The notes under the pieces were generated by a model. The model was not told the DNA's origin, searched no databases, and saw nothing but the letters and a program-made list of their open reading frames with translations. A DNA stretch of 34,323 bases, taken from the NCBI GenBank assembly GCA_031288395.1, contig JAITRM010000029.1, positions 95,782 to 130,104 of the forward strand, written 5' to 3'. The DNA comes from Holosporaceae bacterium (GTDB lineage: Bacteria; Pseudomonadota; Alphaproteobacteria; UBA3830). Below, piece after piece: positions 15,384 through 27,378 of the stretch. The stretch's first letter is position 1; every line of letters starts with the position of its first letter. Both the position numbers and the translations under genes were made by a program.

Positions 15384-15596
15384 TTATTCCTGCCTGTCTT
15401 GTTTTTTCATATATTTCAGTATGTTTACGTAGCCGGCGGCGCAGCCAAAAAGAAAAAATATGATTAAAAACAACGGAGGCGCGCAGAAACGCTTGTCCAG
15501 CCATATGCCGATTAGAACGCCGATTATCACCGCAGAGGCGAACTCCAATCCGACGGACGCGCAAAACGCGACTTTTCTAGGTTTTTTCCCGCTCAT
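15384..15596 (-). CDS. AtpI/AtpZ-like small membrane protein
   Basis: A 70-residue protein with two hydrophobic helices (GLEFASAVIIGVLIGIWLD and LFLIIFFLFGCAAGYVNI) joined by a short loop, a basic N-terminus and a charged C-terminus. This is the AtpI/AtpZ (putative F0F1-ATPase accessory) pattern; the E-x-A-x-x-I-x-x-G-x-x-x-D core is clear. Family members assist c-ring assembly or Mg/Ca transport linked to ATP synthase. Usually the gene precedes atpB; here it follows the DivL-like gene after one base and precedes proS. No F0 genes are in the window. No clear ribosome site is seen, so translation may be coupled to the upstream gene. Confidence 0.78.
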   Translation of the reverse strand: MSGKKPRKVAFCASVGLEFASAVIIGVLIGIWLDKRFCAPPLFLIIFFLFGCAAGYVNILKYMKKQDRQE

Positions 15597-15597
15597 T

Positions 15598-18066
15598 CTA
15601 GGAGTTTACAACTTTTGGGAGCTCAGGAGAATCTTCCGGCGTTTCGATCGGTTTGGCGTCGATGACCTCGGCTTTTTTAATCGGAAGAGAGCAGATAACG
15701 CTGGTTCCTTCCACCTCGGAACTGATGCTGAGCGTTCCGCCATGCAATTCTATCAGCGTTCTAACCAGCGGCATACTGATGCTGTTGGAATCGGCCCCCA
15801 GGAAACTAATTCTATTTGCGGTTCTTTTGAAAACCTTTTTCTTTTCGATTTTGGAGCGTCCAATGCTCTGGTCTTTGATTATTATTTTCATATGGGAATC
15901 ATCGGAGGTCACTATCGCTTCTATTTTTCCGTTGGGAGGAGTAAATTGTATGGCGTTGATCAGTATATTGAACAATGCTTGCTTGATGCGGGTTTTATCT
16001 CCGCTAAACAGTGGTCCGTCGGCGCTGTAGTTTCGAACGACGTCTATATTCTTGCCTTTTGCTCGTTTTTCAAGGCTGAGAATTGCTTCATCCAGAGCGT
16101 CTTCAAGGGGAAAGACCGAAAGCTCCAGGTTTGTCGAATCAATATCTATGGAAACCATCTCCAGCAGATTGTTTATGAGCTGGTGCAATTGATTGGACGC
16201 GTCCAGAATGCAGCGACAGTACTCTGTTTGCTTCTCGTTGAGCGCTCCGAAATACTGATGCATCAGCAATTCCGCGAACCCGATCAGCACGTTGAGCGGC
16301 TCTTTTAGCTCCGTTGAAATTCCAGACACAAACTCAAATCTCAGCTTTTGCGCCGCTTTCAGCGCTTGATTCTTTTCCATGATGGCGTTCTCAACGACAC
16401 AGGTGTCCGTAATATCGATGAAACTGTGCATGTGCGCCCCATCCGGCAGCGGAATGTAGGAAAATAAAATCACGGAATTGTCATTTTTCAATAATTTTCC
16501 CGTTTTCGCGATGCGGTCCGTAAGATTACTGATGGCGTCTTCCAGAAATACATGCCAATCTGTGCCGTAGTTTAGGGAATCCTTCAGAGCTTCCAGCATT
16601 TCCGACAGATGGGTGCTCCTCCATTCCACCAGGGGCCTGTTCTTGTCCAATTTCCATATTTTCAGCATGGCGTTGTTGACAATTTTGAGGCGATTGTCGC
16701 TGCCATAGACGGTTATTCCCTCGTAAAGATTGTCCAGCGTTTCCTTTTGAACAGCCAGTAGAGTGTTGTTTTTGCGCTGCAGCGTCAACGAATCCGTTAC
16801 ATCCTCGTACATGAAGGACAAACCGCCCATGGGATAGGGCGCAATGATGAGGCGCAGCGTTTTTCCGTTGGGCAGGTGCATCATTTCCTGAACCGAAGAC
16901 GTTATGGAGGTAAAGAGCGCCAGCTGCGATTTTTTGAAGGCTTGGAAGTCCGCGTGCTCCGGCAGCTGACGATTATTGCGGCTCTCGTCCAGGATTTCCG
17001 CGTAGGTAGGCTTGGCGTGCAGCCAGCCAGCTTCCAGCTTCATGAGACGTTGATAGGCGCTGTTGAAAAATATCAACCTGGCGTTCTCGTTAAATATCGC
17101 AATGGCGGTGGAAAGAGATTCTAGAACTTCACAGTTGGCGGTCATGACTCTGTCTAAATTGGCGGCAAGATTTTCCTCGGCGGTAACGTCAACGGCGAAG
17201 CCGATCAAATTTTCATTGGAAGCAACGCATTCGTGTATGGATAATTTCTTGCGGATACCATTGATTATCACAAACTGAGCGATGGATTGACTCCGATTGC
17301 ACTTTTTGGCGTTCTCCGCCAATGAATGACCCTGCCCGAAAAGATTTCCCGGAACCAACGGGATGTTATCCAGCAGAATTTTTTCCACGTTGGTGTCGAG
17401 AGCGTCGGCGTATATTTTGTTGCAATACATAATCCCCAGCTTTTTGTTCCTTCTCCAAACGAATATGGGCAAAGCATCAAGAATTTCGCTCAGCCAATTT
17501 ATTTTTGCCATGGCGTCGGAAAGTTTTTGCTCCAGAGACGCGACCTGACAGGACGAGCTCGTGATGTTGGAGCACCACAGCAACACCGTTTCTATGCCGT
17601 TTATCATCAGCCGCGAGCCGCTGACTTCTATTTTGTTGTCGTTGGCCAGCGTTTTCACGGTTATTTTAAAAGAGGCGCCAACTTTTTTTAATCTGTTAAA
17701 GTGAAAGGACAAGTCTTCGGCGTCTTTGGCGTCAATGGCCGCCAAAATATCCGAAATGAAAATGTTGGAAGAATGATTTATTCCCAGAAACGTCCTAAAT
17801 TTTTTTGAGGAACCGATGTACTCGTCATGTTTATTCCAGGCTATCCATCCGTTCGAGGCCGAAGATAATGCCGCCTGGTAATGACAAAGGATATCGCGGT
17901 ACTTTATTAGTTCGTACCTGGCGTCATAAATGCTGTGCAGCAGGGCGATACTCGCCAGCAATAGAGTGGCTGTCGTCAGTAGAGTCGAGTTCGAGAATAC
18001 CAAACAAATAATCCCGAACATGACTAAAAACAGGCCGATTAAGTCCGTTTTAGACCAAGTTTTCAT
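15598..18066 (-). CDS. DivL-like multi-PAS sensor kinase relative, probable pseudokinase
   Basis: An 822-residue membrane-anchored protein with two N-terminal hydrophobic helices (about 9-25 and 28-45). About four PAS-like domains follow (roughly 60-165, 190-300, 305-425, 435-560), then a HisKA-like dimerisation helix pair (570-645) and an HATPase_c-like domain (650-795). The H-box reads SGISTELKEPLNVLIGFAEL, so T585 stands where histidine is expected (tyrosine in DivL). The N-box is kept (N700, N704 in FNILINAIQFTP). The G1 box is eroded (DQSIG at 732-736) and the G2 box has lost its glycines (NSISMP, 761-766). Architecture and loss of the histidine resemble DivL, which regulates CckA rather than signalling by autophosphorylation. 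Orthology is an inference. A proline- and glutamate-rich tail ends the protein. Confidence 0.85.
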   Translation of the reverse strand: MKTWSKTDLIGLFLVMFGIICLVFSNSTLLTTATLLLASIALLHSIYDARYELIKYRDILCHYQAALSSASNGWIAWNKHDEYIGSSKKFRTFLGINHSSNIFISDILAAIDAKDAEDLSFHFNRLKKVGASFKITVKTLANDNKIEVSGSRLMINGIETVLLWCSNITSSSCQVASLEQKLSDAMAKINWLSEILDALPIFVWRRNKKLGIMYCNKIYADALDTNVEKILLDNIPLVPGNLFGQGHSLAENAKKCNRSQSIAQFVIINGIRKKLSIHECVASNENLIGFAVDVTAEENLAANLDRVMTANCEVLESLSTAIAIFNENARLIFFNSAYQRLMKLEAGWLHAKPTYAEILDESRNNRQLPEHADFQAFKKSQLALFTSITSSVQEMMHLPNGKTLRLIIAPYPMGGLSFMYEDVTDSLTLQRKNNTLLAVQKETLDNLYEGITVYGSDNRLKIVNNAMLKIWKLDKNRPLVEWRSTHLSEMLEALKDSLNYGTDWHVFLEDAISNLTDRIAKTGKLLKNDNSVILFSYIPLPDGAHMHSFIDITDTCVVENAIMEKNQALKAAQKLRFEFVSGISTELKEPLNVLIGFAELLMHQYFGALNEKQTEYCRCILDASNQLHQLINNLLEMVSIDIDSTNLELSVFPLEDALDEAILSLEKRAKGKNIDVVRNYSADGPLFSGDKTRIKQALFNILINAIQFTPPNGKIEAIVTSDDSHMKIIIKDQSIGRSKIEKKKVFKRTANRISFLGADSNSISMPLVRTLIELHGGTLSISSEVEGTSVICSLPIKKAEVIDAKPIETPEDSPELPKVVNS

Positions 18067-21090: not shown

Positions 21091-21519
21091 CTAGCCCCAT
21101 CTTTTCAAGATCAGCGATGATGAATTCGCCTTATGCTCTCCTCCTACGCCGAATTCCAGTTTGATATTACACTCTTCGCAGGCTGAGTTTTCCGGAACGT
21201 TTTCCAGAACGCGGTCTCCTCCATTGGCAAAAATCAATTCATCGTCAGGATATTTTATGCGGGCTTTGCGAATCCCGTCGCATGCCGAGTCGTCGGAATC
21301 ATCAAAGGCCAACAGATCGACCACCCCTTTAATATGCGAACAGACCGTCGCTCTCGTGTGGAATCCCAGGAAATTTTTTCCCTTTTTGCGGCAGAGCCAC
21401 TCGTCGGAGTTCAGCAGCAATATCACTCCGTCCGACCTACGCGCGGCTTCTCGGATCATCTCTATGTGCCCTTCGTGGATTGGATCAAATCCCCCGCTAA
21501 CGATGTAGTATTTGCTCAT
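21091..21519 (-). CDS. HIGH-motif nucleotidyltransferase (cytidylyltransferase-like)
   Basis: A 142-residue Rossmann-type nucleotidyltransferase. The nucleotide site is SGGFDPIHEGHIEMI with H15 and H18 of the HxxH (HIGH-like) motif. NSDEWLCRKKG is the usual N-S-D segment, IFANGGDR the middle motif, and NSSSLILKRW the C-terminal ISSS/T-like motif. Known relatives transfer CMP or AMP to sugar phosphates or polyols (TagD, HldE C-domain); the substrate here is not identifiable by reading. Its ATG overlaps the PMM stop (ATGA) and it is the last gene of the run from atpH. The context suggests it acts on the phosphosugar made by the two genes before it (inference). Confidence 0.85.
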   Translation of the reverse strand: MSKYYIVSGGFDPIHEGHIEMIREAARRSDGVILLLNSDEWLCRKKGKNFLGFHTRATVCSHIKGVVDLLAFDDSDDSACDGIRKARIKYPDDELIFANGGDRVLENVPENSACEECNIKLEFGVGGEHKANSSSLILKRWG

Positions 21520-22235
21520 CCCATACTCCTCAAAATTTCCCCAGTGGCGTCGGGGCCGTTTACGGCGAATATCTCAGCATTTCCCAAAGCCAGCAATCTC
21601 TGGGCAATGGCATAGTCGTTGCCTCCCGCTTCGGTGCGATCCCCGAGGAAAATGATTTTTTCGTCCGCGTAGATCTGCCGCAAATAATTTGCCACCTGGT
21701 CTTTTCCAAAGCCTTTGGGAACGATGTCTATGCTTATGTTGCCGCCTATCGAAATATCATATTCCGGATAATCCTGCGCCAAATCACGAGCTATTTTCTC
21801 GCGCTCCTTATTTTGGCTATCCCAGAGACCGTATCTCGCTCTCTCTTTCTGCGGACAATCACGCCCCAGAACGCTAAAATTAAGCATTCCCACCCTAATT
21901 TCTATGTAATTTGGAAATAATTCGAAGGGATAGGCGGTGTTCCGGCGATAATTCTCCAACTTCGCCAGCAGAGATTCCTCTGGTTCGAAATTATTCTGAT
22001 ACACGAGCTTTCCGCCGACATAAAATTCGTTCCCCAGGGATGCGAAAACACCGCTTATTTTCGAAAGAATTCCCTCCGAAACCTGCTCCTGAATTTTTTT
22101 ATAGTCGGAGCCGGAAACGATATAAAAAATCCTCTCCGTTAGGAAATTATCGAAAAATTCAGCAAATTCCTCCGTCATGGGAAGTCGCGCCGGAGTCAGA
22201 GTTCCATCCATATCTGCCACGAAGATGATTTTCAT
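21516..22235 (-). CDS. Phosphomannomutase, eukaryotic PMM type (HAD-IIB superfamily)
   Basis: A 239-residue HAD-fold enzyme close in pattern to eukaryotic PMM1/PMM2, which convert mannose-6-phosphate to mannose-1-phosphate. DMDGTLTPARLPM carries the nucleophile D8 and acid/base D10. VSGSDYKKIQEQV matches the second HAD motif. IEIRVGMLNFSVLGRDC is the substrate-binding cap signature, ISIGGNISIDIVPKG the cap end, and IIFLGDRTEAGGNDYAI the Mg-binding aspartate motif. Most bacteria use the unrelated ManB/AlgC alpha-D-phosphohexomutase instead. ATGA overlaps join it to the cupin gene upstream and to the nucleotidyltransferase downstream. A different phosphosugar substrate remains possible. Confidence 0.88.
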   Translation of the reverse strand: MKIIFVADMDGTLTPARLPMTEEFAEFFDNFLTERIFYIVSGSDYKKIQEQVSEGILSKISGVFASLGNEFYVGGKLVYQNNFEPEESLLAKLENYRRNTAYPFELFPNYIEIRVGMLNFSVLGRDCPQKERARYGLWDSQNKEREKIARDLAQDYPEYDISIGGNISIDIVPKGFGKDQVANYLRQIYADEKIIFLGDRTEAGGNDYAIAQRLLALGNAEIFAVNGPDATGEILRSMG

Positions 22236-22672
22236 GCCATCTCCGACCGGACTTTACAGTGGCAATTTCCGGAGCAGCGTCCGTAGGAGTCTTTATACCT
22301 AACAATATCGCCCTCGTCTAGAATTCCCCCCCTCTGAATCTCCTTCACCAGCAGGATATCAGGTCCGAGATTTTTCAGAGAATGCACAGCTCCGCGCGGA
22401 ATTTCCACGGTCTCTCCCTTTCCAAGGGGCACAGCAGACTCGCCGAGCGTCGCTTCCGCGCATCCCTCAATAATTTCCCACTTTTCGGATCTATGCTCAT
22501 GGGATTGCAGAGACAACTGCGCCCCGGGGTTGACGGCGATGGTTTTTACGACAAATCCTTCGCCTACTTCCTCTACATGCCAGCTCCCCCAGGGCCTTTC
22601 GCATTTGTCACCTTTTTTATAGTTGTTAACCATGATCGATGCAACTCTTGGCAAAACACGCGAATGCATCAT
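22232..22672 (-). CDS. Mannose-6-phosphate isomerase-like cupin (type II PMI C-terminal domain)
   Basis: A single cupin domain matching the isomerase end of type II PMI/GMP (ManC/AlgA) proteins, without the guanylyltransferase half. CERPWGSWHVEEV, VNPGAQLSLQSHEHRSEKW and DEGDIVRYKDSYGR are characteristic. Likely metal ligands are Q56, H58, E63 and H97 (146-residue numbering). The usual histidine after E63 is K64. It would interconvert fructose-6-phosphate and mannose-6-phosphate. The start is uncertain: ATG at 22672 gives 146 residues, but ATG at 22633 (133 residues, MVNNYKKGDK) fits the family better. A cysteine-rich end (CSGNCHC) is unusual. The gene follows atpC by 34 or 73 bases. Confidence 0.85.
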   Translation of the reverse strand: MMHSRVLPRVASIMVNNYKKGDKCERPWGSWHVEEVGEGFVVKTIAVNPGAQLSLQSHEHRSEKWEIIEGCAEATLGESAVPLGKGETVEIPRGAVHSLKNLGPDILLVKEIQRGGILDEGDIVRYKDSYGRCSGNCHCKVRSEMA

Positions 22673-22706: not shown

Positions 22707-25263
<2,557 letters not shown>

Positions 25264-25271
25264 GAGGTTAC

Positions 25272-26816
25272 CTAAACTTTTTGATCATTTTTGAAATCTT
25301 TCAAATAGTTGGCAATCAGCAGCTTTAATTTTTCGTCGGTTGCGGCAGTTATTTCTCCGGAACTGCGCATATCCCGCAGAATTTCCTGAGCTTCGCTGTG
25401 GATGCGGGCCGCAACGTAGGTTTCAAAGGGCTTCGCCTGGAGCAGCGGCAAACTATCCAGGAAGCCATGCACTCCCAGATATATGCTGATGACCTGATTC
25501 TCCGCGCTCAGGGGCGAATATTGCGGCTGCTTAAGAAGTTCCGTCAACCTTTCTCCCCTGGAAATCAATTTCTTGCTGGAGGCATCCAAATCAGATGCAA
25601 ACTGCGCAAAATTTGCCATCTCTCGATACTGGGCCAGCTCCAGTTTTATCTTGCCGGCCACCTGCTTCATGGATTTTATTTGGGCCGCAGATCCAACCCT
25701 GCTAACGGATTGGCCAACATTTATGGCGGGGCGAATGCCGTTGTGAAACAGATCGCTCTCCAGGAATATTTGGCCGTCCGTGATGGATATGACGTTGGTT
25801 GGAATATAAGCCGACAAATCGCCGGCTTGGGTTTCAATGATGGGAAGCGCCGTCAGCGATCCTCCGCCTTTGGATTTGCTGAGCTTGGCGGCTCTCTCCA
25901 AGAGCCTGGAATGCAGATAGAAGACGTCCCCAGGATAGGCTTCGCGTCCGGGCGGTCTTCTCAGCAGCAGCGACATCTGCCGATAGGAAATCGCGTGCTT
26001 GGATAGGTCGTCGTAGATCACGAGGGCATGCATCCCGTTATCTCGAAAATATTCTCCCATGGTGCAGCCGGAATAGGGAGCAAGATACTGCATTGTTGCG
26101 GCATCAGAGGCGGTTGCCGCCACGATGGTGGTGTATTCCATGGCTCCGGCGTTTGCCAGTGTTTTCATTATTTGAGCCACGGAAAATCTTTTCTGGCCTA
26201 TGGCCACATAGATGCAGTACAGCTTATCCTTTTCAATGTTGTTGTCGAAGGCATGCTTTTGATTGAGAATGGCGTCTATAGCGATGGCCGTTTTGCCGGT
26301 CTGCCGATCGCCTATTATCAATTCCCTCTGGCCGCGGCCTATGGGAACCAGAGCGTCGATGGCTTTTAGCCCCGTTTGAACCGGCTCATGAACTGACTCT
26401 CTATCAACGATTCCTGGAGCCTTAATGTCAACGGGACGGTATTCCGTGACGTCCAGTGGTCCTTTACCGTCAATTGGTTCTCCCAAAGCATTAACGACGC
26501 GCCCAAGAAGTCCTCTACCCACCGGAGCCTGCATGATTTTACGCGTTCTGCGAACTTCCATCCCTTCGCGGACGTCCCGGTCCTCGCCGAACAGCACTAT
26601 ATCCGTGGTATCCTCTCCGAGATTTAGCGCCATTCCGTTGACGCCGGACTCAAACACGACCATTTCGCCCAAAGAGACGTCCTCCAGGCCGTAGACTTTG
26701 GCTATGCCGTCGCCGATGGATAACACGCGGCCTATCTCCACAAAATCAGCTCCCAAGTCGGCTTCAGCTATGCGCTTTTTTAATATGGCGGTAACTTCGG
26801 AGGATTTAATTTTCAT
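25272..26816 (-). CDS. atpA: F1 ATP synthase alpha subunit
   Basis: Non-catalytic nucleotide-binding alpha subunit, 514 residues. The P-loop GDRQTGKT is at 169-176. The conserved segments [13 protein letters not shown] (as [14 protein letters not shown]), [25 protein letters not shown]-type segment (in part), [19 protein letters not shown] and [18 protein letters not shown] are all present. The start overlaps the atpH 3' end by 11 bases. Complete and ordinary. Confidence 0.98.
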
Positions 26817-27378
26817 GAATACTTCTCGTAATTGCGCCGCACAGACGGTCTAATTTGGATTTGAGTGAATAATCCAGAATCTTTGAGCGGTACTGTATTT
26901 TCGCTCCGCCAATGAGGGCAGGATCCTTTTGTGTAACGCACAGCACGCGGCGGCCGAGCACTTCTTCCATATCCTGGACAAGTTTCTTTTCCTCAGTCTT
27001 GGAAAATCTTTTGGCGTAGGTCACGCAGATGGCTTCTTTGCTATTCTCCTTATCCGCCAAGGAAATATAGGCGTCGCATATTTCGATAATCATGGTTAAT
27101 CGCTTGTTTTTATGCAGCAAATGGAGAAACGCAGACACTTCAGGGGACAGTTTCAGCTTTTTGCTCAGCTTATCCACGAATTCCAGGCCGCATTCCGGAA
27201 GAAGAGAGTCCTTTTTCAGCGTCTTTTTATAGCTTTCCATGGCAAGCACATGCTCTTTTACGCTTTGCATTTGACGCAGTACCTTCGCTTCCTTTTTGAG
27301 GGAAACTGAAACTTCGTACAGCGATCTCGCATACCGGCTAACGACGGAATTTCCGGCACTTGGACTTAAATCTGCCAA
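26806..27378 (-). CDS. atpH: F1 ATP synthase delta subunit
   Basis: Delta (OSCP-like) subunit linking F1 to the peripheral stalk, 190 residues. The N-terminal helical domain begins [17 protein letters not shown]. The C-terminal conserved segment [29 protein letters not shown] is typical (positions about 154-182). The start codon is TTG at 27378, with GGAG six bases upstream. The only nearby ATG (in ATGGAGTAA) runs straight into a stop. It is the first gene of atpHAGDC. No F0 genes are adjacent, as usual for alphaproteobacteria. Confidence 0.94.

Follow-up and report, generated by a model that had tools for sequence, protein, structure and literature searches.

The window analysed here, a stretch of 34,323 nucleotides (G000:C16:95782-130104), comes from a genome of 0.79 Mb that is 95% complete in 37 contigs, in keeping with the reduced genome supposed in a preliminary description of this DNA. 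On its minus strand lies an uninterrupted reading frame with an ATG start, whose product of 822 aa combines a membrane anchor, an array of PAS domains and the two domains of a histidine kinase (Table 1). Pfam recognises HisKA, HATPase_c and two PAS_7 stretches, and an AlphaFold2 model (mean pLDDT 80.8) places helices at residues 6-25 and 28-69, four PAS folds, DHp helices at 553-602 and 611-642, and a CA domain whose ATP lid (736-763) falls below pLDDT 50. A hydropathy scan is consistent with a membrane region at the N-terminus; the four PAS-like domains and two membrane helices that had been read from the letters are thus borne out. The best conserved of the PAS domains is fold C, with a mean identity of 73% within the organism's own family.

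Table 1. Features of the divL orthologue (window positions) and of the short DivL genes of a sister family (locus positions).
Feature	Position	Strand	Basis or remark
divL orthologue, acceptor-less membrane PAS pseudokinase, 822 aa	15598..18066	-	ORF; Pfam; DHp-CA tree 99/98
Two N-terminal membrane helices, residues ~6-50	17917..18051	-	AlphaFold2 model; hydropathy
PAS fold A, residues 73-167	17566..17850	-	AlphaFold2 secondary structure
PAS fold B, residues 202-293	17188..17463	-	AlphaFold2 secondary structure
PAS fold C, residues 321-422	16801..17106	-	Pfam PAS_7; AlphaFold2; conservation
PAS fold D, residues 450-551	16414..16719	-	AlphaFold2; conservation
DHp helices, residues 553-642, docking surface	16141..16410	-	HisKA 6e-13; dN/dS 0.003; 69% mean family identity
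Thr585 (ACG), phospho-acceptor position	16312..16314	-	Codon and family alignment
CA domain, residues 650-795, fold kept, ATP site eroded	15682..16119	-	HATPase_c 1.2e-13; AlphaFold2; 4q20 Foldseek match
N-box N700/N704, retained	15955..15969	-	93% and 86% of family
G1 box, ATP lid, G2 box, residues 731-766, eroded	15769..15876	-	Family identity; lid pLDDT < 50
Membrane and PAS-only DivL, family f3	L051:3605-5254; L060:2552-4249; L067:3978-5630		All stop at about the same place

Two neighbouring loci are recorded as observations in their own right. A small ATPase_gene1 (AtpI/AtpZ-like) gene lies immediately downstream of divL (15384-15596, minus strand); the ATP synthase genes stand apart from it, around 22967-27378. 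Further along, a phosphomannomutase (21516-22235, minus strand) matches the Pfam 'Eukaryotic phosphomannomutase' family at 2.8e-31 and is flanked by cytidylyltransferase-like and mannose-6-phosphate isomerase cupin genes (21091-21519 and 22232-22672); transfer from a eukaryote is possible.

The H-box of the kinase module reads FEFVSGISTELKEPLNVLIGF, with threonine, read from its codon and from the family alignment, at the position where histidine or the tyrosine of canonical DivL would be expected. Among the boxes N, G1, F and G2, the N-box (NILINAIQF) keeps both of its asparagines, N700 and N704, while G1 (KDQSIGRS), the lid and G2 (ADSNSISMPLV) are eroded, with S-M-P forming a new family motif where the G2 glycines stood. 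The acceptor substitution and the pattern of box loss are therefore as first described.

Is such a protein still DivL? A genome search grouped its relatives into its own family (f1) and three others of the same order (f2, f3 and f4). In a maximum-likelihood tree of the DHp-CA region, the window protein falls on the DivL side of the branch (99/98) that separates 29 sequences from 34 other kinases; the 29 comprise the window protein, its f1 kin, homologues from f2 and f4, 16 class homologues with the tyrosine typical of DivL, and Caulobacter DivL (PDB 4q20). Its nearest neighbours there are tyrosine-bearing DivL proteins of Paracaedibacteraceae, with the motif SYELRAPLN, and Candidatus Paracaedibacter symbiosus is the top-scoring named bacterium outside f1. 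Residues 35-798 align by tblastn to the tyrosine-bearing DivL of genome G069. The PAS and kinase parts match such proteins at 28-40% identity, and the model and the tblastn alignment together give a membrane anchor and multiple PAS domains ahead of DHp-CA, collinear with DivL. Among solved structures, 4q20 is the best match of a tyrosine-bearing class homologue (2e-50), and Foldseek with the window model retrieves it at E 1.9e-13 (TM-score by target 0.65-0.71), although with this multi-domain model other kinases and phytochromes outrank it. On account of the tree placement, the Paracaedibacteraceae neighbours and the 4q20 matches, the protein is a DivL orthologue by descent, if not a canonical tyrosine DivL. 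An unrelated pseudokinase that resembles DivL by chance, the alternative raised in the preliminary description, would be compatible with the missing tyrosine hallmark and with the finding that, among the NCBIfam equivalogs listed, none reaches its own cut-off; the tree and the collinear PAS architecture contradict it, and we regard it as extremely improbable. An ordinary kinase is ruled out by the same branch.

Loss of the acceptor extends through the family. DivL of this kind occurs in some 30 species of gut 'Holosporaceae' with genomes of about 0.7-1.6 Mb. Relatives bearing names are metagenome-assembled 'Holosporaceae' or unclassified Alphaproteobacteria, and several have isolate names suggestive of animal guts (goat cecum, yak omasum, water buffalo and roe deer rumen, red deer); other 'Holosporaceae' isolates presumably come from termites, as we read their isolate codes. 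Neither H nor Y occupies the acceptor position in any f1 sequence read; the residues found there are T, I, V, A and L, and the family tree requires at least eight changes at this position, again none to H or Y. Among the class-level homologues, by comparison, tyrosine was read in 46 of 48. A sequencing error that had removed a histidine is ruled out, since about 30 orthologues from independent assemblies all lack H and Y at the site. Around it, S584, E586, L587, P590, G596 and F597 are conserved in 100% of f1, and the DHp as a whole has a mean pairwise identity of 69%, whereas the stretch from G1 through the lid to G2 averages 34% in f1 versus 45% in tyrosine-bearing DivL. Compared with the congener G001, dN/dS over the whole gene is 0.06, with 0.003 in the DHp part and 0.117 in CA; because dS saturates in all but the nearest congeners, one or two pairs per gene underlie these values. 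Such conservation and dN/dS values show that divL is under purifying selection, which is strongest over the DHp docking surface; constraint has thus been lifted from the acceptor and ATP site and maintained on the docking surface. A pseudogene is ruled out by the low dN/dS and the set of orthologues.

Retention of the N-box in about 90% of f1 and the predicted CA fold leave room for a protein that has kept or gained some other catalysis, binding nucleotide through these elements and being phosphorylated on Thr585 or another residue. We consider this very unlikely: the acceptor residue varies among relatives, with I, V, A and L all found, G1, lid and G2 are eroded, and canonical DivL itself, as studied in Caulobacter, binds ATP only weakly and has no autokinase, kinase or phosphatase activity (PMC4211667).

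Downstream of DivL the pathway appears canonical. CckA, ChpT and CtrA, for which a search of the genome had been proposed, are all present with intact catalytic residues. CckA scores higher with the NCBIfam CckA model (664 bits) than with any other, though short of the strict equivalog cut-off (1000), and CtrA scores 349.8 bits against a cut-off of 350. All tested catalytic residues (His, Asp, N, G1, G2 and Lys, as applicable) are kept in 30 of 30 CckA and 30 of 30 CtrA sequences, sets that take in a few sequences from outside f1. The CHD motif of ChpT is kept in every f1 sequence that could be read, one further sequence being unreadable; the Pfam model missed ChpT in several f1 genomes.

Upstream, the search for DivK returned an orthologue, and one that has also lost its phosphorylation site. 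The genome yielded a single stand-alone DivK-like receiver, at G000:C27:11235-11672 (minus strand), and a receiver tree joins it to ten DivK proteins (99/92), the genes of most of which adjoin PleD. Its phospho-acceptor aspartate is replaced by asparagine in 32 of 32 f1 sequences and the acidic pair has given way in nearly all to EQ, EK, EN or similar, while the lysine is kept wherever readable; judged by these residues, the f1 orthologue cannot be phosphorylated at the usual aspartate. Identity to canonical DivK is 21-29% where the query aligned, and the f1 proteins do not come first for that query in all f1 genomes. In family f2, a diverged DivK-like receiver (L271, G046:C1, minus strand 676-1140) that has kept the aspartate and lost the acidic pair enters the DivK clade on a long branch.

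Two further kinases of the genome have lost phospho-sites. The first, a membrane PAS sensor kinase at G000:C30:4314-6269 (minus strand), has serine at its acceptor position, and none of the 34 f1 sequences retains the histidine, which is replaced by Asn in most and by S, V, I or T in the others. With its N, G1 and G2 boxes largely intact, it is a candidate ATP-binding pseudokinase; sister proteins with histidine occur in f3. It could not be assigned to PleC or DivJ, because it clades with the histidine-bearing f3 kinases and other kinases of the class, and we therefore name it only a PAS sensor kinase. The second is a receiver-kinase protein at G000:C27:5301-6611 (plus strand), in which all 30 f1 sequences have Asn for the receiver aspartate and Q, N or R for the histidine, with ATP boxes intact; among three f3 relatives the aspartate is kept in three and the histidine in two. 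From their common fate one might guess that both kinases are linked to DivK or DivL. Altogether, six proteins of histidine-kinase type were found in the genome, and three of them lack the acceptor histidine; in a published survey it was missing from 0.9% of HisKA domains (PMC12632262).

These losses reach beyond the window, as does the condition of the sister family f3, in which DivL lacks the kinase module altogether. In three f3 genera (G042, G045 and G047) the protein stops just past the fourth PAS domain, at 549-565 aa, and no kinase remnant was found downstream; in G042 the genes that follow resemble what we take, from their translations, to be tsaE and addB. No orthologue within the DivK clade was found in f3, where single-domain receivers matching the canonical DivK query at 37-38% identity are nonetheless placed elsewhere by the receiver tree. 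This absence fits a published observation that where DivL has no kinase domain, DivK is missing too (PMC2877005). A strict rule of no DivK, no DivL kinase domain is broken by G069, which has an intact tyrosine DivL and in which the canonical DivK query returned no stand-alone DivK-like receiver. Co-loss of the two is thus not strict, since f3 has another receiver and G069 keeps its full DivL.

How might a DivL and a DivK without phospho-sites still act on an intact relay? We think it probable, reasoning from sequence, that they form an allosteric, phosphorylation-blind input onto CckA-ChpT-CtrA, the parts of which are present and under selection. Caulobacter DivL senses DivK~P and modulates CckA (PMC4211667). 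Here, DivL would be a purely allosteric membrane scaffold, as the preliminary description also inferred. Signals sensed by its PAS array would change its contact with CckA, and the non-phosphorylatable DivK-like protein would dock on the DHp surface and alter that same contact, thereby tipping the balance between the kinase and phosphatase states of CckA. Docking, set by that protein's level or localisation, would then take over from DivK phosphorylation as the input; we infer the binding, the direction of its effect and the signal. Because Caulobacter DivL recognises DivK~P specifically (PMC4211667), an asparagine-bearing DivK might not bind at all, and the example of G069, a tyrosine DivL without a DivK-like receiver, means that constraint on DHp may reflect dimerisation or contact with CckA rather than DivK.

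Alternatively, DivL could serve as a PAS sensor scaffold for CckA whose DHp-CA region is a passive dimerisation remnant nearing loss, the DivK-like pseudo-receiver acting elsewhere, for example directly on CckA. The f3 proteins that end after PAS fold D could be seen as the outcome of such a process, DivL of Rhodobacterales has likewise degenerated and then been truncated, and the receiver-like protein Osp inhibits CckA directly (PMC9430884). A passive remnant is at odds, however, with the conservation of the DHp, which ranks with the highest in the f1 protein, and we regard this reading as unlikely. The allosteric DivK/DivL input remains the account we prefer.

Comparison with known systems delimits what may be new. 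Like Caulobacter crescentus DivL (4q20; PMC4211667), with which it shares a clade, the window protein is a membrane-bound pseudokinase that joins a PAS array to DHp and CA domains of HisKA type and has no acceptor histidine; the Caulobacter protein, however, has Tyr550 and all kinase boxes and reads DivK~P, whereas here the residue is threonine, the ATP site is eroded and the DivK orthologue lacks the usual phosphorylation site. In Rhodobacterales, too, the kinase module is degenerate or lost while the PAS part and CckA-ChpT-CtrA remain (PMC9430884, PMC2877005), and their short DivL is paralleled by that of f3, but DivK is absent, whereas f1 has a strongly conserved DHp and keeps a DivK with Asn for Asp. 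Osp of R. sphaeroides (PMC9430884) is likewise a single-domain receiver-like protein upstream of CckA; it has the aspartate and lacks the acidic pair and the lysine, while the DivK-like protein has lost the aspartate and acidic pair, kept the lysine and groups with DivK. RetS and other pseudo-histidine kinases (PMC12632262) also retain the fold and a place in a signalling network after losing one or more kinase functions, though RetS belongs to another family with another partner, and in the window genome several proteins have lost their sites family-wide. Degenerate and truncated DivL in the absence of DivK was already described in Rhodobacterales (PMC9430884); what seems new here, judging by the papers searched, is a docking domain retained together with a non-phosphorylatable DivK. 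Among open-licence papers we found neither a conserved acceptor-less DivL kept alongside such a DivK nor a report on the CtrA network of this gut lineage.

A broader proposal, which we advance tentatively and hold to be somewhat doubtful, is that the whole upstream CtrA branch (DivL, DivK and the two companion kinases) has been converted across the family to phosphorylation-free protein-protein signalling, with CckA-ChpT-CtrA remaining canonical. Arguments over the need for phosphorylation in the control of CckA by DivL and DivK have so far drawn mostly on Caulobacter mutants. The roughly 30 species described here amount to a natural experiment in which DivL has lost its acceptor and DivK its aspartate, with the docking surface fixed and the core relay intact, and they offer a natural setting in which control of CckA without phosphorylation can be tested. 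The graded series from tyrosine DivL through acceptor-less DivL to PAS-only DivL may in turn reveal what each part of DivL does.
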